From contig DAHUYE010000093.1 in NCBI GenBank assembly GCA_027315345.1, positions 1 to 37,899 of the forward strand: 37,899 bases of DNA. The letters run 5' to 3'. The notes beneath the pieces are model-generated. The model was not told the origin of the DNA. It was given only the letters and a program-made list of their open reading frames with translations, and did no database searches. A program made the position numbers and the translations under genes. This stretch comes from Actinomycetota bacterium. GTDB lineage: Bacteria; Actinomycetota; Acidimicrobiia; Acidimicrobiales; JAJPHE01. Of this stretch, positions 7,010 to 26,105 are shown one piece after another (the first letter of the stretch is position 1; every line of letters begins with the position of its first letter).

Positions 7010-7030
7010 CTGCCTAGACCCTGCCTAGAC
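7010..7030. repeat. Tandem 10-base repeat at sortase stop
   Basis: CTGCCTAGAC occurs at 7010-7019 and 7021-7030 with a single C between. The second copy contains the sortase TAG stop (7025-7027, minus strand). It resembles the larger duplication at 4721-4769, since it too lies between convergent gene ends. Confidence 0.8.
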
Positions 7031-7876: not shown

Positions 7877-7883
7877 AGCTCCG

Positions 7884-7889
7884 AAGGTA
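7884..7889 (-). promoter_or_regulatory. Predicted -10 element of the sortase gene
   Basis: TACCTT, 7 bases, then GTG at 7876. This is leaderless spacing and it decides the sortase start. Confidence 0.5.
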
Positions 7890-7924
7890 CCCCGGGCGCT
7901 TGGATCAGCCCGACCAGGCCCCCG

Positions 7925-7930
7925 TAGCAT
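7925..7930 (+). promoter_or_regulatory. Possible -10 element of the ccm operon
   Basis: TAGCAT lies 12 bases before the ccmA ATG, so a transcript would have a leader of only about 6 bases. A TTGGAT sequence 19 bases further upstream could serve as -35. Confidence 0.35.
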
Positions 7931-7942
7931 TGGCCGACGCCC

Positions 7943-8596: not shown

Positions 8597-9251
8597 CGCC
8601 GTCCTGGTGGCGGGCAAGGACCTCAAGGTCGAGTACCGGTCCCGGGTGGGGGCCCAGCAGGTCCTCCCCTTCGCCCTGGTGGTCCTGGTCATCTTCGCCT
8701 TCACCCTCGACGCCAATCACGATCTGCTCCAGACGGCGGCGGCCGGTTTGTACTGGGTGGCCGTATTGTTCGCCGGGGTGCTCACCGTGCAGCGCAGCTT
8801 CGCCCTGGAGGCGGCCGACGGGCTCCGGGACGGCCTGCGGCTCTCCGGCCTCGACCCGGCCGGAATCTTCCTGGGCAAGGCGGCGGCGGTGGCCGGACAG
8901 CTGGCCGTGCTGGAGCTCTTCCTGGCCGGGGGCATAGCCGTCCTCTACTCGGCCAGCCTCCACGGCATCGTGCTCTTGGTCCTCAGCGCCGTGCTGGCCA
9001 CGGTCGGACTGGCCGCGGCCGGGACCGTGTACGGGATCGTGGCCGCCGGCCTGGGGGTACGCGAGACCCTGCTCCCGCTGCTTCTCCTCCCCGTCGTCGC
9101 CCCTGTCCTGCTGGCCGCCAGCAAGGTGTGGGAGATCACCCTGCAGTCCGGTCCGGGGGCGTGGGGATGGATGCGCATACTGGTGATCTTCGCCGTGGTG
9201 TACCTGGCTGCGGGTGTACTGGCCTTTGGGCCCCTGCTGGAGGAATCGTGA
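8586..9251 (+). CDS. ccmB: Haem exporter membrane protein CcmB
   Basis: Integral membrane partner of CcmA. The 221 residues are mostly hydrophobic with about six membrane helices, for example VLPFALVVLVIFAFTLD near residue 28 and LLPLLLLPVVAPVLLAAS near 165. LYWVAVLFAGVLTVQRSFALE is the CcmB hallmark. GLRLSGLDPAGIFLGKA is the conserved cytoplasmic loop. Translation starts at TTG 8586, inside the end of ccmA, and the stop overlaps the ccmC start by 4 bases (GTGA). There is no realistic alternative to the call given the order of neighbours. Confidence 0.93.
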   Translation: MFRDAVLVAGKDLKVEYRSRVGAQQVLPFALVVLVIFAFTLDANHDLLQTAAAGLYWVAVLFAGVLTVQRSFALEAADGLRDGLRLSGLDPAGIFLGKAAAVAGQLAVLELFLAGGIAVLYSASLHGIVLLVLSAVLATVGLAAAGTVYGIVAAGLGVRETLLPLLLLPVVAPVLLAASKVWEITLQSGPGAWGWMRILVIFAVVYLAAGVLAFGPLLEES

Positions 9252-9970
9252 GGCGTCTGCTCGGAATCGGATCTGTCGTGGGCCTCACCCTTACGGCCAT
9301 CCTCGGGCTGTTCGTGACGCCTCCGGACCGGGTGATGGGGACCCTGGTCCGCCTTCTCTACGTCCATCCCTCCGTGGCCTGGGTGGCCTATCTGGCCTTC
9401 GGGGTCACCGCCCTGGCCTGCATCTGCTACCTCTGGCCCCGGACCCGGGCCCCGTTCTGGGACCGCCTGGCCGTGTCCTCGGCCGAGATAGGGGTGGTGT
9501 TCTGCGCCCTGACCCTGGCCACCGGTTCCATCTGGGGCCGGCCGACCTGGGGCGTCTGGTGGGCCTGGGACGCCCGGCTGACCACCACCGCCCTACTGCT
9601 CGCCCTGTTCATCGGTTATCTGGCTCTGCGCCGGGTGACGGTCGATCCCGGGGCCCGGGCCCGCCGGTCGGCGGTGGCCGGCCTGGTGGCCTTCGCCGAT
9701 GTGCCCATCGTCCACATGTCGGTGGTGTGGTGGAACACTTTGCACCAGCCGGCCACCGTCCTGCGTCCCAGCCTGGCCTCGCCCACCGTCAGCGGCTCGA
9801 TGGCGTGGACCCTCCTGCTGTCCTTCGTCTCTTTCACCCTCCTCTACGGATGGCTGCTGATGCACCGCTATCAGAACTCGGTGCTCGAGTCCCGCCTGGA
9901 GGAGGAGGGGATGGAGATCGCCCTGGCCGAGAGATGGGCCGAGGCAGTGCCGTCCGGGGTGGGGCGATGA
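9248..9970 (+). CDS. ccmC: Haem-handling membrane protein CcmC
   Basis: Places haem onto the periplasmic-type haem chaperone CcmE. The 240 residues have six predicted helices. The tryptophan-rich WWD loop (TWGVWWAWDARLT) is near residue 100. Conserved histidines lie on either side: YVHPSVAWV and VPIVHMSVVWWNTLHQP. These are the external haem ligands of CcmC. GTG 9248 overlaps the ccmB stop by 4 bases, which fixes the start; a longer frame upstream would run far into ccmB. The stop overlaps the ccmD ATG (ATGA). The short cytoplasmic tail after the last helix (QNSVLESRLEEEG) is normal. Confidence 0.95.
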   Translation: MRRLLGIGSVVGLTLTAILGLFVTPPDRVMGTLVRLLYVHPSVAWVAYLAFGVTALACICYLWPRTRAPFWDRLAVSSAEIGVVFCALTLATGSIWGRPTWGVWWAWDARLTTTALLLALFIGYLALRRVTVDPGARARRSAVAGLVAFADVPIVHMSVVWWNTLHQPATVLRPSLASPTVSGSMAWTLLLSFVSFTLLYGWLLMHRYQNSVLESRLEEEGMEIALAERWAEAVPSGVGR

Positions 9971-10098
9971 GCTATGTGGCCGCCGGCTATGCCGTCACGT
10001 TCGTGACCCTGGGCAGCTACGCCCTCTGGGTGTTGCGCCGCCGCCGCAGCCTCGACCGGCTGCTCCACACCGACGCCAGCCCGGGCCCGGATCGGTGA
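9967..10098 (+). CDS. ccmD: Haem exporter protein CcmD-like, very short
   Basis: 43-residue protein with one membrane helix (YVAAGYAVTFVTLGSYALWV) followed by a basic stretch (LRRRRSLDRLL), exactly the plan of CcmD, which joins CcmABC and CcmE. The ATG overlaps the ccmC stop and the TGA overlaps the ccmE GTG, each by 4 bases, so the frame is fixed on both sides. Sequence conservation in this family is low; the assignment rests on position, size and the helix-plus-RRR pattern. Confidence 0.85.
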   Translation: MSYVAAGYAVTFVTLGSYALWVLRRRRSLDRLLHTDASPGPDR

Positions 10099-10634
10099 CC
10101 TCGACCCTGTTGGCGCCGCCGGGGCGTCCGCCCACCCCGCCTCTCTCCGAGCGCCGCCGACGGTCCCGCCGCCGGGCCTGGGCTCTCATCGGCGTGGTGG
10201 TGGTCGCCCTCGGTTTCCTTCTGTTCAAGGGACTGGAGGGAGCGACCACCTTCTTCTACACCGCCGACCAGGCCGTGCACATGAAGGCCAAGTTGGGCAC
10301 CACCCGCTTCAACATCGAGGGCACGGTCGTGGCCGGCAGCGTCCACCGGGTGGGGAGCGCGGTCGACTTCAGCATCTCCAACCGCGGAGTCACCGTCCCG
10401 GTGTCGAACATCGGGTATCCGCCTCAACTCTTCCGGCCCGGCATCCCGGTGGTGCTGGAGGGGGCGTTCAGCGGTAACACCTTCGACAGCGACCTCATCA
10501 TGGTCAAGCACAGCGCCGACTACGTGGCCGCCCATCCTCAGCGGGTGAAGAGCTACGTGGGCAAGAACGGCACCAGCGGCAGCAGTCGCTCGACGGGCGG
10601 CGGCGCTGGGTCGACCGGCGGGAGCGGCGGTTGA
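10095..10634 (+). CDS. ccmE: Haem chaperone CcmE
   Basis: Binds haem covalently and delivers it to CcmF/H. An N-terminal anchor helix (RRAWALIGVVVVALGFLLF, about residues 26-45) precedes an OB-fold domain starting FFYTADQAV. The covalent haem site is KHSADY near residue 140, which keeps the His-x3-Tyr arrangement of ordinary CcmE (HDENY) and not the Cys variant. The 179-residue protein ends in a Gly/Ser-rich tail (about 20 residues) that looks disordered. The GTG start overlaps ccmD and the stop overlaps ccmF, each by 4 bases. Confidence 0.95.
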   Translation: MTSTLLAPPGRPPTPPLSERRRRSRRRAWALIGVVVVALGFLLFKGLEGATTFFYTADQAVHMKAKLGTTRFNIEGTVVAGSVHRVGSAVDFSISNRGVTVPVSNIGYPPQLFRPGIPVVLEGAFSGNTFDSDLIMVKHSADYVAAHPQRVKSYVGKNGTSGSSRSTGGGAGSTGGSGG

Positions 10635-12637
10635 ACGGCCTCTTCGGCCACGCCGGGGTCATCCTGGCCTTCTGCGCTTCACTCATCGGCGCCGGCTCCA
10701 TCATCTTCGGCCTGGTGACCGGCCGGTCGGACCCGGTCCGCCACGGGCGGCGCTACGCCTGGCTGGTCGGGCTGGGAGCGGTGGTGGCGGTGGCGGCCAT
10801 GGAGCATGCCTTCATCGGTCACGACTTCAGCATCGCCTACGTGGCCCAGAACGACAGCCATGAGACCCCGCTTCTGTATCGCATCACCGGCATGTGGTCG
10901 GCCCTGGCCGGCTCCATCCTGTTGTGGGCGGCGGTGCTGAGCGCCTATCTGGTGGCCACGGCCGTGCGCTTCCGGTCCCGATGGGCGGACCCGGTGGTGG
11001 GCTGGGCCCTGGCCACCATTTTCACCGTGTCGGCGTTCTTCTACGGCCTGATGCTCATGCCCGCCGATCCCTTCCGGGCCACGGTGGGACCGATACCCCT
11101 GGACGGAGCCGGTCCCAACCCGCTGCTGCAGGACAACGCCCTGGTGGCCTTCCACCCCACGCTGCTCTACGTCGGATACGTGGGCTTCACCGTCCCCTTC
11201 GCCTTCGCGGTCGGGATGCTCGTGACCGGGCGGGTGGAGGAGTCCTGGCTGGTCGAGACCCGGCGCTGGACCCTGCTGGCGTGGGGATGTCTGGCCGGGG
11301 GACTGTTCCTCGGGGCGTGGTGGTCCTATCAGGTCCTGGGCTGGGGCGGCTTCTGGGCCTGGGACCCGGTGGAGAACGCCGCCTTCATTCCGTGGTTGTG
11401 CGCCACCGCCTACCTGCATTCGGTGGCGGTGCAGGAACGCCGGGGCATGCTCAAGGTCTGGAACCTGTCCCTGCTGGTAGCCACCTTCAGCCTGACCATC
11501 CTGGGCACCTTCCTGACCCGCTCCGGGGTGTTGGAGTCGGTCCACTCCTTCACCGAGTCCAACATCGGCCCGATCATCCTCGGGTTCTTCGGGCTGGTCG
11601 TGGCCGTCGGTGTCGGCCTCATCGGCTGGAGGGGGGACCGGCTCCGGGCCCCTGGAAGCATCGACTCACCGGTGTCGCGGGAGGGGGCCTTTCTCCTCAA
11701 CAACTTCCTGCTGGGCCTGTTCGCCTTCATCGTCCTGCTCGGGACCGTTTTTCCGCTGCTGGAGCAGGCCGTCAACGGGTCGGTGGTGGCGGTGGGGGCG
11801 CCCTACTTCGACCGCATGGGACTGCCCATCGTCCTGTGCCTCCTCTTCCTCATGGGGGTGGGGGCGGTGCTGCCGTGGCGCAAGACCAACGCCGCCCAGA
11901 TGCGCTCCCGCCTGCTGTGGCCCGCGTGGCTGGCCGGCCTGACCCTGCTGGGCTGCGCCCTGGCCGGGCTGCGGGGGATTGGGGAACTGGCCACCTTCAC
12001 CCTGGCCGCCTTCGCCGCCGGCTCGGCCCTGCGCCAGCTGTACCTCAACCTGCGCACCCGGGGTTGGCTGGGACTGACCGGCCGGTCCAGCGGGGGCATG
12101 GTCGTGCACATCGGCGTGGCCGTGGTGGCGGTGGCCTTTGCCGGGGCCGTCGGTTACGGCCAGCGGGGTGAGGTCCGCCTGGCCGTGGGCCAGTCCACCC
12201 GCTTCGACGGGCGCACCGTCACCTACCTCGGCTCCCGGAACCTGAGCTATCCCAACCGCACCGCCATCGAAGGCCTCATCCGAGTGGATGGCGGACGGGT
12301 GGTCGGCCCGCAGATCAGCCAGTACAGCACCCTGTCCGAAGGAGTGGGAACGCCGGCCGTTGTCTCCGGCCCCCACGAGGATCTGTACCTCACCATCGAC
12401 GTCGGCCCCAGCCGGGTGGGCGCGCCGGCCGTGATCGGAGTGGTGGTGCAGCCTCTGGTCATGTGGCTGTGGGTCGGTGGGGGGATCGTGGTGGGGGGGA
12501 CCGCCCTGGCCATCCTCCCCGAGCGCCGCCGCCGCCGGTCGACCCCCGAACCGGATCCGCTCAGAACCGTGAGGGACCCCCGACCGCCGGACGGCACCGA
12601 CGCCGAGTTGGTCGGGGTCGCTTCCGCCGAGCGGTGA
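10631..12637 (+). CDS. ccmF: Cytochrome c haem lyase subunit CcmF
   Basis: Large membrane protein that, with CcmH, attaches haem to apocytochrome c outside the membrane. The 668 residues contain many helices. The WWD signature is in GWGGFWAWDPVENAAF, near residue 240. LTRSGVLESVHSFTES holds a conserved external His, and VAFHPTLLYVGYVGFTVPFA holds the other. The C-terminal part has the large external domain typical of CcmF, followed by a last helix and a polar tail. TTG 10631 overlaps the ccmE stop by 4 bases. Length is normal for CcmF. Confidence 0.96.
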   Translation: MNGLFGHAGVILAFCASLIGAGSIIFGLVTGRSDPVRHGRRYAWLVGLGAVVAVAAMEHAFIGHDFSIAYVAQNDSHETPLLYRITGMWSALAGSILLWAAVLSAYLVATAVRFRSRWADPVVGWALATIFTVSAFFYGLMLMPADPFRATVGPIPLDGAGPNPLLQDNALVAFHPTLLYVGYVGFTVPFAFAVGMLVTGRVEESWLVETRRWTLLAWGCLAGGLFLGAWWSYQVLGWGGFWAWDPVENAAFIPWLCATAYLHSVAVQERRGMLKVWNLSLLVATFSLTILGTFLTRSGVLESVHSFTESNIGPIILGFFGLVVAVGVGLIGWRGDRLRAPGSIDSPVSREGAFLLNNFLLGLFAFIVLLGTVFPLLEQAVNGSVVAVGAPYFDRMGLPIVLCLLFLMGVGAVLPWRKTNAAQMRSRLLWPAWLAGLTLLGCALAGLRGIGELATFTLAAFAAGSALRQLYLNLRTRGWLGLTGRSSGGMVVHIGVAVVAVAFAGAVGYGQRGEVRLAVGQSTRFDGRTVTYLGSRNLSYPNRTAIEGLIRVDGGRVVGPQISQYSTLSEGVGTPAVVSGPHEDLYLTIDVGPSRVGAPAVIGVVVQPLVMWLWVGGGIVVGGTALAILPERRRRRSTPEPDPLRTVRDPRPPDGTDAELVGVASAER

Positions 12638-13167
12638 GGGGCCGCCGCGTCCTGGTGGGGGCGCTGGTGGCCGGGGCCCTGCTGATCGCCTTCGTGGTGG
12701 TCCTGGCCACCCGCCCCCCGGCCGCCGTCAACCAGGTCGACAGCCCCCTGCTGGGCCGTCCGGCGCCGGCCGTGGCCGGACCCGGGTTGGGCGGCGGCGC
12801 CGTCAGCCTGGCTTCGATGCGGGGCCACTTCGTGCTGGTCAACTTCTTCGCCAGCTGGTGCGGGCCCTGTCATGTCGAAGCGCCCGACCTGGTCGCCCTG
12901 TCCCGCCGCATCGACCTCTTGGGTGTCACCTATGACGATTCCTCTGCCTCGGCGGCCGCCTTCCTGGCTTCGACGGGCGGCCACTGGCCGGCCGTGGCCG
13001 ATCCGGACGGGGCCATCGCCCTCAGCTTCGGGGTCAGGGGCCCGCCCGAGTCCTACCTGGTCAGCCCGGACGGCACGGTGGTGGCCAAGGTGCTGGGGCC
13101 GGTGACCGCAGCCGAGATCTCCTATCTCAACGGGGTCATGGCCCGCACCCTCAGGGCCGGGCAGTGA
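12634..13167 (+). CDS. ccmG: Thiol:disulfide oxidoreductase CcmG/DsbE-like
   Basis: Membrane-tethered thioredoxin that keeps the CXXCH thiols of apocytochrome c reduced. The 177 residues begin at GTG 12634 (4-base overlap with ccmF) with an anchor helix (VLVGALVAGALLIAFVVVLA). The thioredoxin-fold domain has the active site FFASWCGPCHVEAPDL. The cis-proline loop is VRGPPESYLV, where G-x-P-E is the family pattern. It lacks any periplasmic signal cleavage site, so it stays anchored. The stop overlaps the ccmH start by 4 bases. Confidence 0.93.
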   Translation: MRGRRVLVGALVAGALLIAFVVVLATRPPAAVNQVDSPLLGRPAPAVAGPGLGGGAVSLASMRGHFVLVNFFASWCGPCHVEAPDLVALSRRIDLLGVTYDDSSASAAAFLASTGGHWPAVADPDGAIALSFGVRGPPESYLVSPDGTVVAKVLGPVTAAEISYLNGVMARTLRAGQ

Positions 13168-16488: not shown

Positions 16489-17328
16489 TTGAGCAGTCCA
16501 CACCAGCCCGCCGGCCCCGCCGGGAGGGTCAACCAGTTCATGACGCCGGGCACCAGGACCCGGGTACTCGGCATCTCCTCCGGTAAGGGGGGAGTGGGCA
16601 AGTCCTCGGTGACGGTCAATCTGGCCATCAGCCTGACCGCCCGCGGCCACCGGGTCGGGATCCTCGACGCCGACGTCTACGGCTACTCCATTCCCCGCAT
16701 GCTGGGCCTGACCGAGGCCCCCGAGGTCGAGTCGGAGCAGATCATCCCGCCCGAGGCCTACGGGGTCAGCGTGGTCTCCATCGGCTTCTTCGTGGGCGAG
16801 GACCAGCCGGTGATGTGGCGGGGACCGATGCTGCACAAGGCCCTGGAGCAGTTCCTGGTCGACGTGGCCTGGGGCGAGCCGGACTACCTGCTGGTCGACA
16901 TGCCCCCGGGCACCGGGGATGTCGCCCTGTCCATGGCCCAGTTCCTGCCCCGCTGTGAGTTCTTCGTGGTCACCACCCCCCAGGCCGCCGCCCAGCGGGT
17001 GGCCCAGAAGACCGCCTTCATGGCCCGGAAGCTCAAGCTGCCGTTGCGGGGAGTCATCGAGAACATGTCCTGGTTCACCGGGGATGACGCCAAGCGCTAC
17101 GAGTTGTTCGGTTCCGGCGGCGGGCAGTCCCTGGCCGATGATCTGAGCGTCCCGCTGCTGGGCCAGATCCCCCTGGTGCCCGCCGTCCGAGCCGGGGGGG
17201 ACTCCGGAGTCCCGGTCACGGTCTCGGATCCGGAGGGGGAGGCGGCGGCCGCCTTCGGCGCCGTGGCCGAACGCATCGAGGCGATGGGCCCGGCCCGCAT
17301 CTACCGCTCGGAGCTCAAGGTCAACTGA
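16489..17328 (+). CDS. mrp: Mrp/ApbC-family P-loop ATPase (Fe-S cluster carrier)
   Basis: Deviant Walker A ATPase thought to hold and transfer Fe-S clusters in the cytoplasm. The 279 residues have GISSGKGGVGKSSVTVNLA near residue 28, the second motif GILDADVYGYSIP, VDMPPGTGDVALSMAQ, and IENMSWFTGDD. The CxxC pair found in many Mrp proteins at that last place is absent, and so is the N-terminal DUF59 domain. The start is uncertain: TTG 16489 follows GGGATGGGA, and an ATG at 16540 would remove 17 residues that precede the conserved part. It is divergent from the SufR-like regulator, which may control it. Confidence 0.9.
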   Translation: MSSPHQPAGPAGRVNQFMTPGTRTRVLGISSGKGGVGKSSVTVNLAISLTARGHRVGILDADVYGYSIPRMLGLTEAPEVESEQIIPPEAYGVSVVSIGFFVGEDQPVMWRGPMLHKALEQFLVDVAWGEPDYLLVDMPPGTGDVALSMAQFLPRCEFFVVTTPQAAAQRVAQKTAFMARKLKLPLRGVIENMSWFTGDDAKRYELFGSGGGQSLADDLSVPLLGQIPLVPAVRAGGDSGVPVTVSDPEGEAAAAFGAVAERIEAMGPARIYRSELKVN

Positions 17329-18137: not shown

Positions 18138-18861
18138 GCCCACCGGGGATCTCCAGCGCTTCGATCGGGTCGAACGGGCGCTTCACTGGGTGAATGCCGG
18201 GCTGTTCGGCGTGGTCATGCTCACCGCCATACCTCTCTATATCGGCTCTCTGGCCGGCATTTTCGGCCGTCGCCACCTGCTGGTGGAGATCCACGTGTGG
18301 GCCGGCGTCGCCCTGCCCGTTCCTCTGCTGCTGGCCCTGGCCGGACCGTGGGGACACAACCTGCGCGACGACCTGTCCCGCTTCAACCGCTGGACCAAGG
18401 ACGACTTCGACTGGTTGTTCTCATCGGCTCGTCGACTTCAGGCCCGGGTGGGCAAGTTCAACGCCGGCCAGAAGCTGAACGCGGCGTTCATCGGTGGCGC
18501 CATCGTCGTCATGCTGGTCACCGGCTCCGTCATGAAGTGGTTCTCCCCCTTCCCCAACTCGTGGCGCACCGGAGCGACCTTCGTCCATGACCTTCTGGCC
18601 ACCGCCATCTTCGTGGTGGTGGTCGGTCACATCGCCTTCGCCCTGACCCATGTCGATTCGCTGCGCTCCAGCATCACCGGCCGGGTGAGCCGCTCCTGGG
18701 CCCGCCGTCACGCTCCGGCCTGGCTGGAGGAGATGGAGCGGGCCGAGGTCCTGTCCTCTCAGCGGGGGGTGTCGACCCCCCTGGGCAGCTTGGCCGGGTC
18801 CCAGTCCAGGAGCGCCACCGCCGACCTGAAGGCGAACCGGTCGGTCATCCCTCCCACGTAG
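18118..18861 (+). CDS. Cytochrome b561 / formate dehydrogenase gamma-type membrane subunit
   Basis: Four-helix b-haem protein that would pass electrons between quinol and the exported molybdoenzyme. Likely haem ligands are His23 (RALHWVNAGLF), His59 (EIHVWAG), His157 (FVHDLLAT) and His171 (VVGHIAFALTH). GKFNAGQKLNA near residue 112-122 is the cytoplasmic loop signature of FdhI-type subunits. This is not the YedZ/MsrQ family usually paired with MsrP. The ATG at 18118 overlaps the molybdoenzyme gene by 20 bases. The last 34 residues (103 bases) overlap the converging dGTPase-like gene. They look unlike a cytochrome tail, so a lost stop codon is possible. Confidence 0.85.
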   Translation: MTPPSAEPTGDLQRFDRVERALHWVNAGLFGVVMLTAIPLYIGSLAGIFGRRHLLVEIHVWAGVALPVPLLLALAGPWGHNLRDDLSRFNRWTKDDFDWLFSSARRLQARVGKFNAGQKLNAAFIGGAIVVMLVTGSVMKWFSPFPNSWRTGATFVHDLLATAIFVVVVGHIAFALTHVDSLRSSITGRVSRSWARRHAPAWLEEMERAEVLSSQRGVSTPLGSLAGSQSRSATADLKANRSVIPPT

Positions 18862-20048
18862 GTCACCGCCCGGTGCATGGCCTCCGGGCTGCCGGCCGTC
18901 ACCTCGTCGCCACCGTGACCACGGTCCTCGGGTTCGGAGCGGCCGCCGGCGGCGCCGGCCGGCTCGGCCAGCAGGTGGGGACGGTCCGCGTAGTGCTCGA
19001 CCAGAGCTCTCAACACGTCGATGACGGCGGCGGCCTGGGCCTGGGAGGCGGGGCGCAGGTAGATGTGCTCGTAGTCGAAGGCCCGCAGGGCGGCCAGGGC
19101 CCCGGCCATGGGTTCGGACATTCCGACCACTCCGGTGCGGGTGATGGTCTCCACCAGGTCGGTTATGAAGGCCCGGAGCTGGCGGGACCGGGTCCGCCCG
19201 GCCCGCTCCGCCACCACGGCCGGGAGCATGTCCACGGTCACGATGCCGGCCTGCTGGGCGTCCTCCAGGTCGTGGGCGGTGTAGGCGCAGCGGTCGGCCC
19301 ACGACACCACTTCGGCCTCGGGGGTGGAGGGGGCGGGCCGGGACCAGCTGTGGTTCCGGATCCCGTCGAGCACCTGGGCGGTGAGGTTGAGCGGGACCAG
19401 GACGGCGTCGGCCCCCCACACGGCGTGGTCGAAGCCACCCTCCACGTAGGGTCCCAGGGCGTCCTCGCTGGCGTGGCCCCCCGGACCGTGGCCGCAGTCG
19501 TGGCCGAGGGCGATGGCCTCGGTCAGGGCCTGGTTGAGCCCGGTGGCCCGGGCCACCGCCCCGGCCACCTGGGCCACCTCCAGGGCGTGGGTCAGGCGGG
19601 TGCGCTGATGGTCATCGGGGAACACGAAAACCTGGGTCTTACCGGCCAGGCGCCGGAAGGCGGTCGAATGCAGTATCCGGTCCCGGTCCCGCTCGAAGCA
19701 GGTACGCAGCGGATCGGGCTCCTCGGGACGGGCCCGGTCCCCGGCCCCTTCGGCCCGGGTCGCCCCGTCGGCCAGGAGGGCCGCTTCGGACTCCTCCCTG
19801 GCCTGGCGGCCGATGGGCCAGCCCGCTCCCCCCGGTCCGCCCGGGGGCGGGCCCAGACGGGCTCCCTCCGGGCCCGGGGAGTCGGAGTGGGCCAGGCGGA
19901 TCCCCCCGGTCGGGCCGGGCCGGTCAGACCCCCCGGCGGGGCCGGCGGCGTGGCCGGCCATGGTCGACGCCCAGGTGCGAGCCCGAGCGGAGGGGGAGAA
20001 GCTCACACCGACAGTCTGGCGTGCGGGTGTGTCAGGCGGACGTACCAT
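18759..20048 (-). CDS. dgt: dGTPase-like HD-domain triphosphohydrolase
   Basis: Predicted to hydrolyse dGTP or another dNTP to the nucleoside and triphosphate, adjusting dNTP pools. The conserved part begins at DPLRTCFERDRDRILHSTAF near residue 112. The metal ligands are in TRLTHALEVAQ and ALGHDCGHGPGGH (HD motif). Further family sequences are GIRNHSW and ADRCAYTAHDLEDA. The first 80-100 residues are Gly/Pro/Ala-rich and not conserved, so the start is uncertain: ATG 20048 (with GAGGGAAG 5 bases upstream), a GTG near 20012 and ATG 19961 are all possible. Starting at 20048 leaves 26 bases to the divergent DUF3107 gene. The 3' end overlaps the cytochrome gene by 103 bases. Confidence 0.88.
   Translation of the reverse strand: MVRPPDTPARQTVGVSFSPSARARTWASTMAGHAAGPAGGSDRPGPTGGIRLAHSDSPGPEGARLGPPPGGPGGAGWPIGRQAREESEAALLADGATRAEGAGDRARPEEPDPLRTCFERDRDRILHSTAFRRLAGKTQVFVFPDDHQRTRLTHALEVAQVAGAVARATGLNQALTEAIALGHDCGHGPGGHASEDALGPYVEGGFDHAVWGADAVLVPLNLTAQVLDGIRNHSWSRPAPSTPEAEVVSWADRCAYTAHDLEDAQQAGIVTVDMLPAVVAERAGRTRSRQLRAFITDLVETITRTGVVGMSEPMAGALAALRAFDYEHIYLRPASQAQAAAVIDVLRALVEHYADRPHLLAEPAGAAGGRSEPEDRGHGGDEVTAGSPEAMHRAVTYVGGMTDRFAFRSAVALLDWDPAKLPRGVDTPR
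20043..20048 (+). promoter_or_regulatory. Possible -10 element of the DUF3107-arsA operon
   Basis: TACCAT would place transcription start near 20055, giving a leader of about 20 bases that holds the strong GGAAGGAG ribosome site (20062-20069) before the GTG at 20075. Confidence 0.35.
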
Positions 20049-20074
20049 GCAGGCTTCCCTCGGAAGGAGCAGCT

Positions 20075-20314
20075 GTGGTCGTTGTTCGCGTCGGTGTCAC
20101 CCAGGCGCCTCGGGAGATCGAGGTCGAGTTGAGCGACGACACCGATCGGGCCGCCCTCTCCAAGTCGATCGACCAGGCCCTGGGCAAGCCGGACGGAGTC
20201 CTCTGGCTGGAGGACCGCCGCGGTCGCAAGGTCGGGCTGCCCTCGGCCAAGGTGGCCTACATCGAGATCGGCGCCCCGGGGGAGGACCGACGGGTCGGAT
20301 TCGGCGCCCCCTGA
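20075..20314 (+). CDS. DUF3107 family protein
   Basis: 79-residue protein of a small actinobacterial family with no established function. It starts with a beta-strand VVVVRVGVTQAPREIEVEL, has a helical middle (SKSIDQALG), a short hairpin VLWLEDRRGRKVGLPSAKVA, and the highly conserved ending YIEIG...RRVGFGA. The start GTG 20075 is fixed by the ribosome site GGAAGGAG with a 5-base spacer. It is the first gene of a run with two ArsA/Get3-like ATPases, a PHP phosphatase and pdtaS. A role linked to those ATPases is possible but only inferred from position. Confidence 0.9.
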   Translation: MVVVRVGVTQAPREIEVELSDDTDRAALSKSIDQALGKPDGVLWLEDRRGRKVGLPSAKVAYIEIGAPGEDRRVGFGAP

Positions 20315-20351
20315 GGCCCGCTCCCACCCTCAGTCAGGACCGACGCCTCCG

Positions 20352-21299
20352 GTGACCGATTTGCTCGAGCGCCGGCTGATCTTTGTCAGCGGTAAGGGTG
20401 GGGTGGGCAAGACCACGGTGGCGGCCGCCCTGGGCCTGCTCGCCTCCCAGCACGGTAAGCGGACCCTGGTCTGCGAGGTCGACCCCAAAGGCGACCTGGC
20501 CACCTCCTACGAGTGCTCGCCCACCGGCTTCACCCCCCGGGAGGTCCAGCCCGGGCTGTGGGCGATGTCGATGAACACCGAGGAATCCCTGCGGGAGTAC
20601 CTCAAGCTCAACCTGCGCATCCCGGTGGCGGGCCGCATCGGCCCGCTGGCCAAGGCCTTCGATTTCGTGGCCACGGCCGCCCCCGGGGTCAAGGAGATAC
20701 TGACGGTGGGCAAGCTGTGCTGGGAGGTGAGAGAGGGCCACTACGACCTGGTGGTGGCCGACGCCAGCGCCACCGGCCACATCGTGGGCCAGCTGTCGGC
20801 GCCCCAGGGCATCAACGAACTGGTCCAGGTCGGCCTGGTCCGCCAGCAGACCGGCTGGATGCTCGACATCCTCTCGGATCCGGCCCTCACCGGGCTGTGC
20901 ATAGTGGCCACCCCGGAGGAGATGCCGGTCTCGGAGACCATCGACCTGGCCGCCCGGGTGGCCAAGGAGACAACCGTCGACCTGGCGTCCATCATCGTCA
21001 ACCGGGTGCTGCCCGAGTTGTTCACCACCACTGAAGAGGAGATCTTCGACCGGCTGTGCGAACCGGCGGTGGCCGACCGGCTGGAGGAGATGGCCGGAGG
21101 TTCCCCCGGACCGATCCTGGCCGCCGCCCGGCTGGCCGTGACCATGCGCCGGACCCGCACCGGACATCTCGAACGGCTGCGGGCCGGCATCGATCCGTCC
21201 GTGCCGCTGCTGTATCTGCCCTACCTCTTCGCCCGGGCCCATGGGCTGCGGGCGATCCGCCAGGTGGCCGAGGCCCTGGGCGCGGAGCTGGGTCTGTGA
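20352..21299 (+). CDS. ArsA/Get3-like ATPase, first of a pair
   Basis: SIMIBI-class ATPase related to ArsA and the tail-anchored-protein factor Get3. The 315 residues have the deviant P-loop FVSGKGGVGKTTVAAALG near residue 11 and CEVDPKGDLATSYE as the switch I region. DLVVADASATGHIVGQLS is switch II. CIVATPEEMPVSETIDLAARV holds the nucleotide-base loop. The metal-binding cysteines of true ArsA are absent, so arsenite transport is unlikely. Mycobacterium has a comparable adjacent pair (Rv3679/Rv3680), which is from memory. The stop overlaps the second ATPase by 4 bases, so the two are likely to act as a heterodimer. Confidence 0.9.
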   Translation: MTDLLERRLIFVSGKGGVGKTTVAAALGLLASQHGKRTLVCEVDPKGDLATSYECSPTGFTPREVQPGLWAMSMNTEESLREYLKLNLRIPVAGRIGPLAKAFDFVATAAPGVKEILTVGKLCWEVREGHYDLVVADASATGHIVGQLSAPQGINELVQVGLVRQQTGWMLDILSDPALTGLCIVATPEEMPVSETIDLAARVAKETTVDLASIIVNRVLPELFTTTEEEIFDRLCEPAVADRLEEMAGGSPGPILAAARLAVTMRRTRTGHLERLRAGIDPSVPLLYLPYLFARAHGLRAIRQVAEALGAELGL

Positions 21300-22468
21300 G
21301 CCCCCACCCCGCCCCGGTCGCCTCCGCCAGCCTGGACCAGCTGCTGGCGGCCAAGGAGATCGTCATCTGCTGCGGTTCCGGCGGGGTGGGCAAGACGACC
21401 ACGGCCGCCGCCGCCGCCGCCATGGCCGCCGTCAAGCACGGGGGCAAGGTGCTGGTGGTCACCGTGGATCCGGCCCGCCGCCTGGCCGACGCCCTGGGTC
21501 TGTCCGGGATCGGGAACACCGAGAGCCAGGTCCCGGCCTCCGCCTTCGCCGAGGCCGGGGTCAAGCCCCGGGGCCAGCTGTGGGCGGCCATGCTCGATAC
21601 CAAGCAGTCCTGGGACGACCTGGTCCGGGCCCACGGTCCGGATCAGTCCACCATCGATCAGATCCTGGCCAACCCGCTGTACCAGAACATCTCCGGCCGC
21701 TTCGTCCAGAGCCACGACTACATCGCCATGGAGCGGCTGTACGAACTCCATTCCGAGGGCAGCTACGACCTGATCGTGGTGGACACCCCGCCGACCCGCA
21801 ACGCCATCGACTTCCTGGAGGCGCCCCAGCGCATGGGGGACTTCTTCTCCAGCCGGCTGTTGCGCTGGCTGATCGCCCCCTACCGTTCCCGGCTGGTCAA
21901 CTTCGCCTCCAAGCCCTTCTACCAGGTGGCCGACCGCATCCTGGGCACCCAGTTCCTCCAGGACATCGCCGAGTTCTTCATACTCTTCCAGAGCATGTAC
22001 GACGGCTTCGTGGAGCGGGCCCGCAGCGTGTCCCGGCTGCTTCAGGACCGCCGCACCACCTTCATGGTGGTGAGCACGCTGGAGGCTTCCCCGCTGACCG
22101 AGGCCGAGTTCTTCATCGAGGCCCTGACCGAGCGAAAGCTCCATCTGGGGGCGGTCATCCTCAACCGGGTCCTGCCTGACTATCTGCTGGACGAGGGCGC
22201 CTCGGTGGTGGCCGGCACCATGGAGAAGTCCGCCGGTGATCTGGCCGTCCAGCTGGGCGCCAAGGTCGGGCCGCCCGAGCAGCTGGAGCGGGTCCTGGCC
22301 GAGATCTCCTCGTCCTTCCTCAACTTCCAGGTGGTGGCCCAGCGGGAGGCCGAACAGCGGGCCGAGCTTTCCGCCCGCCCCGATGTGGTGGCCACCATTC
22401 CCTTCTTCGACACCGACATCACCGATCTGTCCGGCCTGCTCCGCCTGGCTGAGCACATCTGGTCCTGA
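21296..22468 (+). CDS. ArsA/Get3-like ATPase, second of a pair
   Basis: 390-residue partner of the upstream ATPase. GTG 21296 overlaps its stop by 4 bases (GTGA), which sets the start; a longer frame upstream would only run back through that gene. The P-loop is IVICCGSGGVGKTTTAAAAA. Switch regions are VTVDPARRLADALGL and LIVVDTPPTRNAIDFLEAP. A long helical insertion follows (LLRWLIAPYRSRLVNFASKPF to EFFILFQSMYDGF), richer in aromatics than in the first ATPase and possibly a client-binding groove as in Get3. MVVSTLEASPLTEAEFFIEAL is the expected base-recognition region. Client and ion are unknown. Confidence 0.9.
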   Translation: MSPHPAPVASASLDQLLAAKEIVICCGSGGVGKTTTAAAAAAMAAVKHGGKVLVVTVDPARRLADALGLSGIGNTESQVPASAFAEAGVKPRGQLWAAMLDTKQSWDDLVRAHGPDQSTIDQILANPLYQNISGRFVQSHDYIAMERLYELHSEGSYDLIVVDTPPTRNAIDFLEAPQRMGDFFSSRLLRWLIAPYRSRLVNFASKPFYQVADRILGTQFLQDIAEFFILFQSMYDGFVERARSVSRLLQDRRTTFMVVSTLEASPLTEAEFFIEALTERKLHLGAVILNRVLPDYLLDEGASVVAGTMEKSAGDLAVQLGAKVGPPEQLERVLAEISSSFLNFQVVAQREAEQRAELSARPDVVATIPFFDTDITDLSGLLRLAEHIWS

Positions 22469-22521
22469 TGGCCACTGCCCGGCGCCGGTTCCGGCCCTGA
22501 GGCGTCCGAGGCGGTGAGACC

Positions 22522-23397
22522 ATGATCGACTACCACGTCCACCTCTGGCCCCACGGGGACCCAGACGCCACCCCCACCGTGGAGGAGTTGGCCGGCTACT
22601 GCGAGGCCGCCGCCGCCGAGGGAGTGGCCGAGATCGCCCTGACCGAGCACCTCTACCGCTTCCGCGCGGCCCGAGAGGCGGTGGGCGACTTCTGGGCCGA
22701 GGAAGGGGCCGACCCGGCCCTGGCCGCCGTAATCGGGCCGTACTGGGACGACCACTGCCGAGCCGATCTGGACATTTATGTGGCCGTGGTGGAAGAGGCC
22801 AAGGCGGCCGGCCTGCCCATCCGGCTGGGCCTGGAGGTGGACCATTACCCGGGCCGGATGGATGCCGTGGGGCGGCTCCTGGACGGGTACCCCTTCGACG
22901 TGCTCCTCGGATCGGTGCACTGGCTGGACATCTGGATGCTCGACTACGTCGAAGACCCGACCTCCATGGCCGAGTGGGGCCGGCGGGGAGTGGATGCGGC
23001 CTGGGGGGCCTACACCGAGGCCCTGGAGGATCTGGCCGGCACCGGGGTCTGCGATGTGCTCGCCCATCCCGATCTGGCCAAGGTGGCCGGCCACCGCCCC
23101 GACCCCGGGCTGCGGCTGGATCTCGAGGCCCGGATGGCCGAGGCCGCCGCCGCCAACGGGATGGCTGCCGAAGTGTCCTCGGCCGGGTGGCGCAAGCCGG
23201 CCCAGGAGGCCTATCCGTCGCCGACCCTGCTGGATCTCTTCCACGCCGCCGGCGTCCCCGTCACCACCGCCTCGGACAGCCACGGCCCCGGCCGGGTCGC
23301 GCACCGCAGTGCCGATCTGCGCCGGTTGGTGGAGCGGGCCGGCTATGACTCGCTGGCCGGCTTCGACCGGCGCCGCCGGCGGAAGGTGACCCTGTGA
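22522..23397 (+). CDS. PHP-domain histidinol-phosphatase-like protein (HisJ type)
   Basis: Metal-dependent phosphoesterase, 291 residues. Metal-binding histidines and acids are placed as in HisJ: DYHVHLWPHG at the N-terminus, ALTEHLYRF, LGLEVDHYPG, LLGSVHWLD, VLAHPDLAK and TASDSHGPGR near the end. It may remove phosphate from L-histidinol phosphate in histidine biosynthesis. No his gene is nearby, however, so another phosphomonoester is equally possible. The ATG at 22522 is preceded by GGCGGTGAG. The stop TGA overlaps the pdtaS GTG, so the two genes are translationally coupled, which ties this phosphatase to a signalling gene. Confidence 0.85.
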   Translation: MIDYHVHLWPHGDPDATPTVEELAGYCEAAAAEGVAEIALTEHLYRFRAAREAVGDFWAEEGADPALAAVIGPYWDDHCRADLDIYVAVVEEAKAAGLPIRLGLEVDHYPGRMDAVGRLLDGYPFDVLLGSVHWLDIWMLDYVEDPTSMAEWGRRGVDAAWGAYTEALEDLAGTGVCDVLAHPDLAKVAGHRPDPGLRLDLEARMAEAAAANGMAAEVSSAGWRKPAQEAYPSPTLLDLFHAAGVPVTTASDSHGPGRVAHRSADLRRLVERAGYDSLAGFDRRRRRKVTL

Positions 23398-24866
23398 TGG
23401 CCGACGCCACCCTGCCGGCCTGGATGTCCCCTGATGAATCGGACCACGTCAGGGCCCTGATGGCCAGCTGGGGGATGCTGGCCGACCTTTGCTTCGCCGA
23501 TCTCCTGCTGCTGGTGCCGGACGATGCGGGTAACCCGGTCGACTTCCACGCCGTGGGCCAGGTGCGGCCCAGCACCAACCCGACCCTGTACCGGGAGGAC
23601 ATGGTCGGTCGGGTCATCCCCGGCGCCGAACGGCCCGTGTTCAAACGGTCCTGGGCCCTGGGCCAGATCGTGGAGGAGGAAGTCAGCCACGCCACCGGTG
23701 AGCGGGTCCGGCTCCAGTGCATCCCGGTGCGGGGCCGGGACCGCCTCCTGGCCGTGATGACCCGGGAGTCGGCCCCGACCGTGGGGCGCCGGCAGGGCGA
23801 GTTGGAGCGGGTCTACGTGGAGACCTTCGACCGCTTCGCCCGCATGATCGTCAACGGGGAGTTCCCGTTCCACTTCGAGGAGGAGGTCTCCCTGTCCGGG
23901 GAGTCCCCCCGGGTCGGTGACGGCGTGCTCGTGGTCGACGATAAGGGGCGCGTCGTCTACGCCAGTCCCAACGCCGTCAGCGCCCTGCACCGGCTGGGAG
24001 TGACCTCCAACTTCGAAGGGGCCCGGCTGGAGGAGTTGGGGGTGGAGGCCACGTCGGTGGCGCGGGCTCTGGAAGCGGCCCTGCCCGTCACCGAGGAGGT
24101 CGAACGCCGTCCCGATCTCTCCCTCCTGGTCCAGACCATCCCTCTCCTCGAGAACGGCCGGCCGACCGGGGCCATGGTGCTGGTGCGCGATGTCACCGAC
24201 CTGCGCCGCCGTGACCGCCTGCTGGTGTCCAAGGACGCCACCATCCGGGAGGTCCACCACCGGGTCAAGAACAACCTCCAGACCATCTCGTCCCTGCTGC
24301 GACTCCAGGGCCGCCGGCTCGGGCCGGGGGGAGGCCGCACCGCCCTGGAGGAGGCCGAGCGCCGGATCCGTTCCATCGCCCTGGTCCATGAGATTCTCTC
24401 CCGGGACCCGGGGGATCAGGTCGCCTTCGGGGAGATCCTGCGCTCCCTCGTGCACATGGCCGAAGAGGCGGCCACCTCCTTCGACCGCCCGGTGCGGGTG
24501 CAGATCAAAGGGGATGCCGGGGAGGTGCCGGCCGAGGTGGCCACCCCCCTGGCCGTGGTCATGGCCGAGCTGCTCCAGAACGCCGTGGAGCACGCCTTCA
24601 CCGGGGAGGGTCCCTGGCAGGAACGGGACCGCCGCCAAGTCGGTGTCGACTTCGACAACGACGGGACCGAACTGCGCATCCGGGTGTGGGACAACGGTGT
24701 CGGCCTGCCCGAGGGCTTCGATGTCTCCCGCACCGTCAGCCTCGGGCTGTCCCTGGTGCGGGATCTAGTCATCGGCCAGCTTCAGGGTCAGATCATGATG
24801 GGCAGCGAGGGCGGGACCCGGGTGGCCCTGGTCTTCCCCCTACCCGCCCCTACAGATCTGGGCTGA
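23394..24866 (+). CDS. pdtaS: Sensor histidine kinase of the PdtaS type
   Basis: Cytosolic sensor kinase whose mycobacterial relative phosphorylates the RNA-binding antiterminator PdtaR. The 490 residues have an N-terminal GAF-like domain (about 20-165, MLADLCFADLLLLVPDDAGN). A PAS domain (about 175-285) has VVDDKGRVVYASPNAVSALH. A HisKA_2 dimerisation helix carries the phospho-acceptor His289 in HHRVKNNLQTISSLLRLQ. A C-terminal HATPase has the N-box AELLQNAVEHAF and G-box WDNGVGLPEGF. There are no membrane helices. The start may be GTG 23394, overlapping the PHP gene stop, or ATG 23397. No pdtaR gene is in the window. The converging neighbour is a whiB gene, the same tail-to-tail arrangement as pdtaS and whiB1 in Mycobacterium, as I recall it. 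Confidence 0.92.
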   Translation: MMADATLPAWMSPDESDHVRALMASWGMLADLCFADLLLLVPDDAGNPVDFHAVGQVRPSTNPTLYREDMVGRVIPGAERPVFKRSWALGQIVEEEVSHATGERVRLQCIPVRGRDRLLAVMTRESAPTVGRRQGELERVYVETFDRFARMIVNGEFPFHFEEEVSLSGESPRVGDGVLVVDDKGRVVYASPNAVSALHRLGVTSNFEGARLEELGVEATSVARALEAALPVTEEVERRPDLSLLVQTIPLLENGRPTGAMVLVRDVTDLRRRDRLLVSKDATIREVHHRVKNNLQTISSLLRLQGRRLGPGGGRTALEEAERRIRSIALVHEILSRDPGDQVAFGEILRSLVHMAEEAATSFDRPVRVQIKGDAGEVPAEVATPLAVVMAELLQNAVEHAFTGEGPWQERDRRQVGVDFDNDGTELRIRVWDNGVGLPEGFDVSRTVSLGLSLVRDLVIGQLQGQIMMGSEGGTRVALVFPLPAPTDLG

Positions 24867-24901
24867 GCTCATGGCTCTTCGCCTGACGGCTCATGGCGGT
24901 G

Positions 24902-24927
24902 CCGACGGGGACCCCGGCCCCAGTCGG
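24902..24927. terminator. Hairpin between convergent pdtaS and whiB
   Basis: CCGACGGGG (24902-24910) pairs with CCCC-A-GTCGG (24918-24927), a 9-base stem with one bulged A and a 7-base loop. It lies in the 85-base gap between two converging genes and could stop transcription in both directions. No T-run. Confidence 0.4.
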
Positions 24928-24951
24928 CTCGTTGGCGGGCTACCCGTCTCC

Positions 24952-25242
24952 CTAGGAGGCGGCGCGCTGGCGGGCCAGCCAGGACTTGCGCATCTTGCGG
25001 CGCTCCTCCTCGCTGGTGCCGCCCCAGACCCCGCACTCCTGATGGGTGGCCAGGGCGAACTCGAGGCAGGGCTCCTTGGCCGGGCAGGTCTGGCAGACCA
25101 GCTTGGCCGCCTCGATCTGGTCGATGGCCGTACCGGTGGTGCCGACCGGGAAGAACAGGTCGGGGTCGGTGTCGCGGCACGACGCCAGTCCCCGCCAGCT
25201 CTCGATGTCCCAGTCGATGGTGCGGCTCCAGGTGAGGGCCAC
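24952..25242 (-). CDS. whiB1: WhiB-family Fe-S transcription factor, WhiB1-like
   Basis: [4Fe-4S] protein that binds the primary sigma factor and tunes transcription, responding to NO or redox. The 96 residues have the four cluster cysteines Cys22, Cys50, Cys53 and Cys59 (SCRDTDPDLFFPVG and KLVCQTCPAKEPC). The turn GVWGGTSEEERRKMRKS follows, then a basic tail. LFFPVG and the tail-to-tail position with pdtaS point to WhiB1 among WhiB classes. The N-terminus is about 13 residues longer than mycobacterial WhiB1. The GTG at 25242 has a perfect AGGAGG 7 bases upstream (25255-25250), so this gene is leadered, unlike many in the window. A CRP-like palindrome lies 36 bases upstream. Confidence 0.92.
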   Translation of the reverse strand: MALTWSRTIDWDIESWRGLASCRDTDPDLFFPVGTTGTAIDQIEAAKLVCQTCPAKEPCLEFALATHQECGVWGGTSEEERRKMRKSWLARQRAAS

Positions 25243-25277
25243 GGGTTTGCCTCCTCGGCTGTCCAGGCTGAGGGCCT

Positions 25278-25293
25278 AGTGAATTTGTTCACA
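25278..25293. promoter_or_regulatory. CRP-like palindromic site upstream of whiB
   Basis: AGTGA-ATTTGT-TCACA matches the CRP/FNR consensus TGTGA-N6-TCACA at 9 of 10 fixed positions; the inner GTGAA-TTTG-TTCAC is a perfect inverted repeat. The centre is about 43 bases upstream of the whiB start codon and about 70 bases upstream of the divergent phosphodiesterase start. Its AT content stands out from the surrounding DNA. Mycobacterial whiB1 is a known CRP target. Confidence 0.55.
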
Positions 25294-25342
25294 TGCATCC
25301 CGCCCGACTACGACGAGCCCAGGGCGTGAAGTGCTGGGATCA

Positions 25343-25348
25343 TAAGAT
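25343..25348 (+). promoter_or_regulatory. Predicted -10 element of the glycerophosphodiesterase gene
   Basis: TAAGAT, 7 bases, then TTG at 25356. Leaderless spacing; it overlaps an alternative ATG (25347), arguing against that start. Confidence 0.45.
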
Positions 25349-25355
25349 GAAGGCC

Positions 25356-26105
25356 TTGGAAAAGCAAGGCTTTGATGGGGCAAACTTTTCTGGCCCGACA
25401 CTTCTCGGCCACCGGGGCATGGGCGTGGGCCCGGAGGAGAACACCCTGGCCGGGCTGATGGAAGCCATCCGGGCCGGGGCCGACGGGATCGAGTGCGATG
25501 TGCGCCGGACCGCCGACGGCGCCCTGGTCCTGCATCACGATCCGGTCATCGAGGGGGCCGGGCCGGTGGTGGGGTTGACGGTGGCCCAACTCCCGGGCCG
25601 GGTGCCGCGGCTGGAGGCGGTCCTCGACGCCCTGGTGGGCTCGCACCTCAACCTGGAGATCAAGAACCTGCCCACCGAGCCGGGTTACGACCCCGAGGAG
25701 CTCACGGCCAGGCAGGTGGCGGCCCTGTTGAGGGAACGGGCGGGCCAGGACTCGGTGATCATCTCCTCGTTCACCGCCGCCGCTCTTGACGCAGTGCTCT
25801 CAGTGGACCCCGCTCGGGCCACCGGGTTCCTGACCACGGCCGGCTACGACCAGGACAAGGCCTTGGCCCGGGCCGTGGAGCGGGGCTGGTCCGCCCTGCA
25901 CCCCCACCACCGGGCGGTCACGGCCGAGCTGGTGGCCGCCGCCCACTCACAGGGCCTGGCCGTCAACACCTGGACAGTCAACGACCCGGAGGAGGCTCGG
26001 CGCCTGGCCGGGATCGGGGTGGACGCCATCATCACCGACGCCGTCGGAGCCATCGGCTCCGCCTTGGGCCGGGCGGGGGCGGGCCCAGGGGCGTCAGCAG
26101 ACTGA
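25356..26105 (+). CDS. Glycerophosphodiester phosphodiesterase
   Basis: Hydrolyses glycerophosphodiesters from phospholipid turnover to glycerol 3-phosphate and an alcohol. About 249 residues. The TIM-barrel active site is complete: LLGHRGMGVGPEENT (His and Glu-Asn), GADGIECDVRRTADG (Glu-x-Asp), and LVLHHDPVIEG (second His). NLEIKNLP holds another metal/base residue. The usual ending is NTWTVNDPEEARRLAGIGVD followed by IITD. There is no signal peptide, so it should be cytoplasmic. The start is uncertain: TTG 25356 fits the TAAGAT element; ATG 25347 and an ATG at 25293 (inside the CRP-like site) are alternatives. The first 30 codons are less GC-rich than the rest. The 3' end overlaps the lipid kinase gene by 74 bases. 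Confidence 0.88.
   Translation: MEKQGFDGANFSGPTLLGHRGMGVGPEENTLAGLMEAIRAGADGIECDVRRTADGALVLHHDPVIEGAGPVVGLTVAQLPGRVPRLEAVLDALVGSHLNLEIKNLPTEPGYDPEELTARQVAALLRERAGQDSVIISSFTAAALDAVLSVDPARATGFLTTAGYDQDKALARAVERGWSALHPHHRAVTAELVAAAHSQGLAVNTWTVNDPEEARRLAGIGVDAIITDAVGAIGSALGRAGAGPGASAD

Follow-up and report, generated by a model that had tools for sequence, protein, structure and literature searches.

Do the six genes that stand together at positions 20,075 to 25,242 of contig DAHUYE010000093.1 from an Actinomycetota bacterium (assembly GCA_027315345.1) serve a common process, or have they simply stayed side by side by descent? The window, as the stretch analysed here is called, makes up the whole of contig C65 (37,899 nucleotides) in a genome of 3.84 Mb and 106 contigs, and the class to which it and the same-class genomes used below belong is probably Acidimicrobiia. 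The six genes are the following:

20075..20314, + strand: DUF3107 protein of 79 aa (Pfam PF11305, 66 bits)
20352..21299, + strand: ArsA1, a BagA-like ATPase of the ArsA/Get3 family (PF02374, 116.7 bits)
21296..22468, + strand: ArsA2, a BagB-like ATPase of the Get3 fold, with a GTG start (PF02374, 98.9 bits)
22522..23397, + strand: PHP-domain protein, histidinol-phosphatase-like (Pfam; under the NCBIfam cut-offs)
23394..24866, + strand: PdtaS-like histidine kinase with GAF, PAS, HisKA_2 and HATPase_c domains (GAF_PdtaS 111.6 bits and HisKA_2 78.3 bits, above cut-offs)
24952..25242, − strand: WhiB1-like iron-sulfur regulator, tail to tail with PdtaS, whose closest solved structure is WhiB1

The DUF3107 match exceeds the PF11305 cut-off (27 bits); the GTG start of ArsA2 overlaps the TGA stop of ArsA1, with 4 bp in common, and the PHP and PdtaS genes likewise share 4 bp. 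Gene content, order, overlaps and the tail-to-tail WhiB gene, as given in a preliminary description of this DNA, were all borne out by the open reading frames (ORFs) and Pfam.

The answer that we prefer, tentatively and short of calling it probable, is that the genes represent an old DUF3107-PdtaS-WhiB1 stress-regulation block of Acidimicrobiia that carries a Get3-like ATPase pair as an accessory, because of their tight same-strand spacing and their retention across families. Two sets of regions were compared. The first, referred to below as the named loci, comprises 80 loci picked by likeness to ArsA2, and hence conditioned on it; 46 of the 80 best ArsA2 relatives come from records with names that NCBI assigns to Acidimicrobiia, e.g., Candidatus Microthrix and Acidiferrimicrobium, the rest bearing coarser or odd names, which is why the class is given here as Acidimicrobiia; only loci with enough room enter the counts. 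For the second, 138 class genomes were searched for DUF3107, with a match in 109, and regions of 20 kb or shorter around it were compared for 101 of these (window included); this set is unconditioned on the ATPases. The two sets may have species in common, and in the region counts the window row and the DUF3107 position of one locus (L208) were entered by hand from gene calls. Genomes of about 1 Mb of the class family f55 are among those without a DUF3107 match, possibly as a result of genome reduction.

In the class regions, the ATPase pair lies downstream of DUF3107 on the same strand in 59 of 101, with a median gap of 36 bp and a gap of at most 104 bp in 57 of these 59. PdtaS is found downstream of DUF3107 in 67 of 101 regions, and the WhiB gene faces the group in 71 of the 80 that offer at least 9 kb of room. 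Fourteen regions have PdtaS after DUF3107 without the pair (within 74 bp in 7 of them), and 27 have neither pair nor PdtaS, DUF3107 and WhiB then facing each other, within 242 bp in 24 cases. The order and strands of the block are mostly preserved across the named loci, with DUF3107 retained in 66/67, ArsA1 in 79/80, PdtaS in 60/64, WhiB in 55/64 and PHP in 48/71, while three other Pfam-supported genes in range are retained in just 10/59, 11/60 and 7/54. Two ORFs without a Pfam match are retained in 19/55 and 7/54 loci, the second of which overlaps a sigma-factor gene and is perhaps no gene. The cluster is real and old and occurs widely through the class, and the clustering exceeds chance there, so that the long-term clustering claimed in the preliminary description stands within the class. 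DUF3107 and WhiB1 are its usual ends, PdtaS its usual middle, and PHP an optional member.

Which of these genes form the core? In a PdtaS tree with 64 rows, of which 63 are labelled, the pair switches between present and absent at least seven times, a number forced by well-supported branches, and 26 of the 42 class genomes without a linked pair carry an ArsA2 relative elsewhere (E ≤1e-25). Two findings favour the block: PdtaS (PF12282, E up to 1e-6) occurs in 15 of these 42 genomes, always on the same contig as DUF3107, in one case at a distance of 15 kb, and in none of the 27 class genomes whose block consists of DUF3107 and WhiB alone. The ATPase pair is probably an accessory cassette, an optional extra rather than a core part. 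The mean identity of DUF3107 to its out-of-class relatives is 0.408 in regions with the pair (n=57), 0.395 in those with PdtaS and no pair (n=14) and 0.330 in those with neither (n=27), i.e., loss of the pair alone hardly alters DUF3107; the identity of WhiB to out-of-class WhiB, taken over 3 reference rows, is 0.498, 0.516 and 0.527 (DUF3107 and WhiB only), respectively. Across 119 genomes of the phylum, PdtaS is present in 23 of the 27 with DUF3107 versus 27 of the 92 without, and a strong WhiB match in 26/27 versus 31/92 (Fisher p <1e-6 for both, ignoring kinship); one of the 27 (G097) is counted on a 24-position DUF3107 fragment at a contig end, which gave no region. The divergence after PdtaS loss and this co-occurrence suggest, short of proof, that DUF3107 is tied to PdtaS and WhiB1 and less so to the ATPases.

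The small protein at the head of the block has informative relatives. The model of the window's DUF3107 (pLDDT 83.4) matches 7rur_C with Z 10.6 and rmsd 1.6 over 65 aligned residues at 34% identity, and the titles of its relatives in the PDB describe Rv3208A as “hexadecameric” (7rur) and “octameric” (7rus), while the molecule of 9nip, with 48 chains, is named “Small RNA-Binding protein (SRB)”; these titles and names support the preferred reading, and from them we infer that the window's DUF3107 may bind RNA. Our search, which left most subscription journals outside, found no literature on 9nip or, among the papers listed, on an RNA-binding role of DUF3107; a review table (PMC4255298) has the Streptomyces gene 5169 as “DUF3107, possible ATP-binding protein”.

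As for PdtaS, the phospho-acceptor region HHRVK is intact in 135 of 136 rows, the remaining row being gapped, and the window's genome has a candidate for its partner PdtaR, a receiver plus ANTAR protein (L149), as the preferred reading would have it. In M. tuberculosis, PdtaR is the RNA-binding partner of PdtaS and is titrated by a small RNA induced by nitric oxide (NO), according to PMC8131098. Elsewhere in the window's genome (contig C101:717-2424), a WhiB gene adjoins two ANTAR matches, the first in a neighbourhood of the GAF-ANTAR type. The WhiB protein of the window scores 90.2 bits against solved WhiB1, the next kind reaching 56.7 bits; all 146 rows, including 3 out-of-class ones, have the four cluster cysteines, and all have G71 and W73 of the turn motif (GVWGG in the window), with G74 in 145/146. 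All four cysteines of M. tuberculosis WhiB1 are needed for the cluster (PMC3390391), and WhiB1 reacts with NO (PMC5741622 and PMC3390391), which again favours a stress block.

We now turn to the ATPases. ArsA2 matches 6bs3_B at 218.6 bits in sequence, and its model (pLDDT 76.8) does so with Z 33.9 and rmsd 2.7 over 351 aligned residues and resembles many Get3 chains with Z 18-24; the solved structures nearest to ArsA1 are 3zq6, an archaeal TRC40 (91.6 bits), then Rv3679 (86.7 bits). Both fall under the NCBIfam cut-offs for BagA (ArsA1 134.2 bits, cut-off 400) and BagB (ArsA2 298.6 bits, cut-off 521), and both miss that of TIGR00345 (GET3_arsA_TRC40, 135 bits), with 107.8 and 91.2 bits, as does the pair of family f30 (93.2 and 88.9 bits). 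The DUF3107-linked proteins come out as a single group of 39 rows in each of two trees, of ArsA2 (65 rows) and of ArsA1 (64 rows), with SH-aLRT supports of 94 and 90; the pairs of family f13 and two pairs of f6 and f7 adjoin the linked group in the ArsA2 tree, while the f30 pairs and a second pair of the window's genome form a separate group. These trees, like the PdtaS and Mrp trees used here, were built by a quick method with at most two linked rows per family and have some long branches; that of ArsA1 leaves out L198. The linked pair is a new paralogous clade beside BagA/BagB, of a known kind of protein.

Within the pair, all 64 A rows have the signature lysine and none of the 84 B rows does: ArsA1 keeps it in GKGGVGKTT, and it is replaced in GSGGVGKTT of ArsA2 (the Walker lysine is gone in three A rows of unlinked pairs). 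The stretch between switch II and the next strand motif spans 92 residues in ArsA2 and 44 in ArsA1; the long ArsA2 region is helical in the model, with FILMVWY making up 44% of residues 179-248, a value without a computed baseline. The lysine in A alone and this difference in length lead us to infer that ArsA1 and ArsA2 could form an asymmetric heterodimer in which one nucleotide site is completed and the client surface lies on one side. A composite site uniting the ArsA1 lysine with a catalytic aspartate of ArsA2 was also considered; its lysine half held and its aspartate half failed, that residue being variable in both proteins. Switch I of linked ArsA1 often reads DAKG, versus EGRQ in other classes, and switch II often D..ATGH versus DAPPTGR. 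The CxxC motif, the zinc motif of Get3/TRC40, is found in 0 of 80 ArsA1 and 0 of 81 ArsA2 rows, in agreement with the Get3-like ATPases without metal cysteines of the preliminary description.

Put together, the preferred reading would work as follows. DUF3107, to judge by how its PDB relatives are named and assembled, would be a ring-like oligomer binding small RNA and, with PdtaS and the RNA-binding ANTAR partner PdtaR, would tune expression post-transcriptionally, while WhiB1, on losing its iron-sulfur cluster to nitrosative or redox stress, would tune transcription. In the asymmetric ArsA1/ArsA2 heterodimer, the signature lysine would come from ArsA1 alone, and therefore only the nucleotide site of ArsA2 could be completed in trans; the long helical region of ArsA2 might hold hydrophobic clients, probably membrane proteins, and the pair would serve the block as an accessory output, protecting membrane or envelope proteins during that stress. 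In support, the bagAB genes have been implicated in protection against the toxicity of glycerol metabolism and of NO (PMC10597346). A fuller version, in which a small-RNA ring of DUF3107 acts with PdtaS/PdtaR and WhiB1 and the linked BagAB paralogue couples riboregulation to membrane-protein handling, seems to us unlikely as a whole; if true, it would tie riboregulation to a bacterial Get3-like machine in a way not described so far.

Several observations weigh against the stress block. No ATPase pair stands beside DUF3107 in 42 of the 101 class regions or in any of 16 out-of-class regions (two of which have less than 1.3 kb of downstream room), so the pair is no obligate partner of DUF3107, and the two as an obligate pair are ruled out; of the DUF3107-ATPase adjacency in the preliminary description, the 59 linked class regions remain, and the tie is looser than was supposed there; one half of that description's own ground for refutation, rare adjacency of the two across the phylum, is borne out by the regions outside the class. 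The PdtaS cysteines C53 and C57, whose columns were placed by alignment with 2ykf, do not occur together in any of 135 rows, 69 of which belong to the named loci and 66 to the window and genomes of its class, and since PdtaS lacks these known NO and copper cysteines, its signal here cannot be read from M. tuberculosis. The switch-I aspartate, which we take to be catalytic in Get3/TRC40 (the title of 9ns5 names Get3 D57N), is variable in both ATPases, which makes hydrolysis uncertain. The RNA-binding idea depends on the depositors' molecule name for 9nip, and the DUF3107 model resembles Hfq/Lsm weakly, with Z 3.6-4.2, within the tool's caution range. The divergence of DUF3107 depends on one clade (13 Mrp rows, one change): the lineages with DUF3107 and WhiB only fall on one side of a branch of the Mrp tree (13 rows, support 96), hence PdtaS loss counts once. 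Compared with pair-bearing class rows, WhiB (0.568 vs 0.617) and Mrp (0.604 vs 0.661) are also lower in these lineages, although the drop for DUF3107 is larger (0.360 vs 0.460). Finally, four neighbours apparently unrelated in function, Mrp (44/53), electron-transfer flavoprotein (ETF) beta (45/54), GDPD (41/59) and HD (42/63), are retained nearly as well in the named loci.

This last point leads to a serious rival that follows close behind, synteny by descent alone, in which unrelated housekeeping genes, those of Mrp, HD, GDPD and ETF as well as DUF3107, the ATPases, PdtaS and WhiB1, lie in a slowly rearranging region and share no process; we consider it doubtful, and still a good deal more credible than the alternatives below. 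General synteny is high in this region, and the retention of Mrp, ETF, GDPD and HD, together with the conditioning on ArsA2, means that the named loci cannot separate function from synteny; the seven or more changes of state of the pair while its neighbours stay fit this explanation as well. On the other hand, descent alone does not readily account for the poor retention of the three other Pfam-supported genes in range, for the operon-like gaps between DUF3107 and the ATPases, for the phylum-wide co-occurrence of DUF3107, PdtaS and WhiB (kinship being ignored) or for the stronger divergence of DUF3107 than of WhiB where PdtaS was lost (a single event).

Outside the class, DUF3107 lies some 10 kb or much further from WhiB, which also favours synteny. 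Family f30 is taken here as mycobacterial, as its pair passes the BagA and BagB cut-offs (427.7 and 619.3 bits) and adjoins a WhiB4 gene (L181; 137.6 bits, one genome). In it, DUF3107 is about 10 kb from the WhiB1-type gene in three of four genomes and about 11 kb in the fourth, judging by positions; in f25, the nearest PdtaS-linked WhiB genes among those listed are about 88 and 106 kb away. Of 42 out-of-class genomes with PdtaS, at least 22 have WhiB and PdtaS arranged tail to tail (hand count). What the preliminary description says of Mycobacterium, namely whiB1 adjoining pdtaS, DUF3107 not far off and an ArsA pair elsewhere beside another whiB, agrees with these findings as far as they go. 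In two f13 genomes, the pair follows DUF3107 on the same strand at distances of 6.4 and 12.6 kb, a third contig ending too early; in one of these genomes, acyl-CoA dehydrogenase, PHP, thioesterase and ABC genes separate them.

Pairs away from DUF3107 also have WhiB company. The second BagA/BagB-like pair of the window's genome (L179:6768-9240, contig C88), which misses the BagA/BagB cut-offs (143.3 and 368.3 bits), stands 168 bp from another WhiB gene, nearest to WhiB3 among solved structures. A WhiB gene lies within 4 kb of 14 of 23 pairs unlinked to DUF3107; with 11 WhiB matches in the 3.84 Mb of the window's genome, chance proximity is estimated for this genome at a few per cent. Get3-like pairs thus recur next to different WhiB kinds. 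Rv3679/Rv3680 mutants showed higher fitness with streptomycin in one screen (PMC12216072).

A less likely alternative is a GET-like pathway, in which ArsA1/ArsA2 would deliver tail-anchored proteins and DUF3107 would be a Get4/5-like or ribosome-side partner. The ArsA2 model does match Get3 with bound transmembrane clients (4xwo, 4xvu and 4xtr, Z 22.6-23.1), its long helical region is rich in hydrophobic residues as given above, and DUF3107 is directly upstream of the pair in the 59 linked class regions; yet DUF3107 persists in the 42 class regions without the pair and stands away from it in other classes, any groove would be one-sided given 44 residues in ArsA1 against 92 in ArsA2, and no client or receptor turned up, none having been searched for. 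Membrane-protein targeting by the ATPases, in whatever scheme, is conjectural.

Somewhat more improbable still is the version of the preliminary description, that PdtaS senses NO or copper, with the ATPases targeting membrane proteins during such stress. One has to keep in mind that the literature links each of bagAB, PdtaS and WhiB1 in M. tuberculosis to NO: NO and copper inhibit PdtaS via C53 and C57 (PMC8131098). The invariant WhiB cluster cysteines fit as well, and so does a non-homologous PdtaS cysteine, C109 in the window, present in 85 of 136 rows (C33 is in 54 of 136); redox sensing by PdtaS through such other cysteines may occur. The NO-responsive kinase as such is not supported by the count of the C53/C57 dicysteine, which among all 136 rows is kept in one, from an f30 genome outside the class (L167). 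Moreover, the pair linked to DUF3107 is a paralogue that branches separately, and it is the second pair of the genome that shares the f30 branch. Last, an ATPase of an arsenite or other anion pump, as the Pfam name of PF02374, “Anion-transporting ATPase”, implies, is very improbable, with 49.0 and 44.8 bits for ArsA1 and ArsA2 against the cut-off of 650 of the arsenical pump model TIGR04291, the CxxC motif missing from every row and no ArsB-type match among the window ORFs put to Pfam, the rest of the genome not having been searched for ArsB.

Around the block, the window has a G+C content of 0.69-0.75 (3 kb steps), and GDPD and ETF genes lie downstream. Three upstream features complete the map:

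20043..20048, + strand: TACCAT, possible -10 element of the DUF3107 gene (pattern TAYCRT)
18759-20048: dGTPase-like HD protein, upstream of DUF3107 and divergent
16489-17328: Mrp/ApbC-type P-loop protein, further upstream than the HD gene

Mrp/ApbC relatives are found at most 3.5 kb upstream of DUF3107, on the same strand, in 63 of the 101 class regions. Upstream strings were counted in 172 regions, i.e., the named loci, the class regions and positions 19955-20074 of the window, near relatives included: TAYCRT occurs in 44 (shuffled mean 7.1), TGTANCGT, which the window does not have, in 34 (0.6), TACGATG in 30 (0.6) and CAGTSTG in 27 (2.3). The last three of these strings are probably promoter elements and possibly also include a regulator site. 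A sigma-70 promoter scan of 19800-25500 gave no match, no tRNA genes were found in the window nor any known RNA family at gathering score, and a defence library matched the two ATPases alone there, weakly (at most 20 bits). At 7025-13167, the window carries genes for a sortase and for cytochrome c assembly, along with a redoxin.

We found no description of a DUF3107-ATPase-PdtaS-WhiB1 block in the literature that our search reached, subscription journals being mostly outside it. Few partners were found there for bacterial Get3-like pairs and for DUF3107, and the block supplies concrete, testable ones, PdtaS rather than the ATPases being the likelier partner of DUF3107. The NO and copper sensing of M. 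tuberculosis PdtaS, for its part, cannot be presumed for its relatives.

Among known systems, BagA/BagB (Rv3679/Rv3680; PDB 6bs3-6bs5) are closest to the ATPases: they too are a tandem pair, A with and B without the signature lysine, with a WhiB gene nearby, whereas the window's pair belongs to a separate clade under the equivalog cut-offs and stands beside DUF3107, PdtaS and WhiB1. With Get3/TRC40, ArsA2 shares the fold, but ArsA1 and ArsA2 have neither CxxC nor a conserved switch-I aspartate and remain under the TIGR00345 cut-off. The window's DUF3107 is in the same Pfam family as TB9.4/Rv3208A (7rur, 7rus) and SRB (9nip) and matches the fold of 7rur, from which it differs in being 34% identical and in having another gene neighbourhood. 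PdtaS shares with the PdtaS/PdtaR system of M. tuberculosis the GAF-PAS-HisKA_2-HATPase layout, HHRVK and the tail-to-tail WhiB neighbour; unlike it, the window's PdtaS is without the C53/C57 dicysteine, and in the class DUF3107, in many cases along with the ATPase pair or PHP, stands directly ahead of PdtaS. The WhiB protein, with WhiB1/WblE as its best PDB match and four invariant cysteines, shows no departure from them in the features compared.

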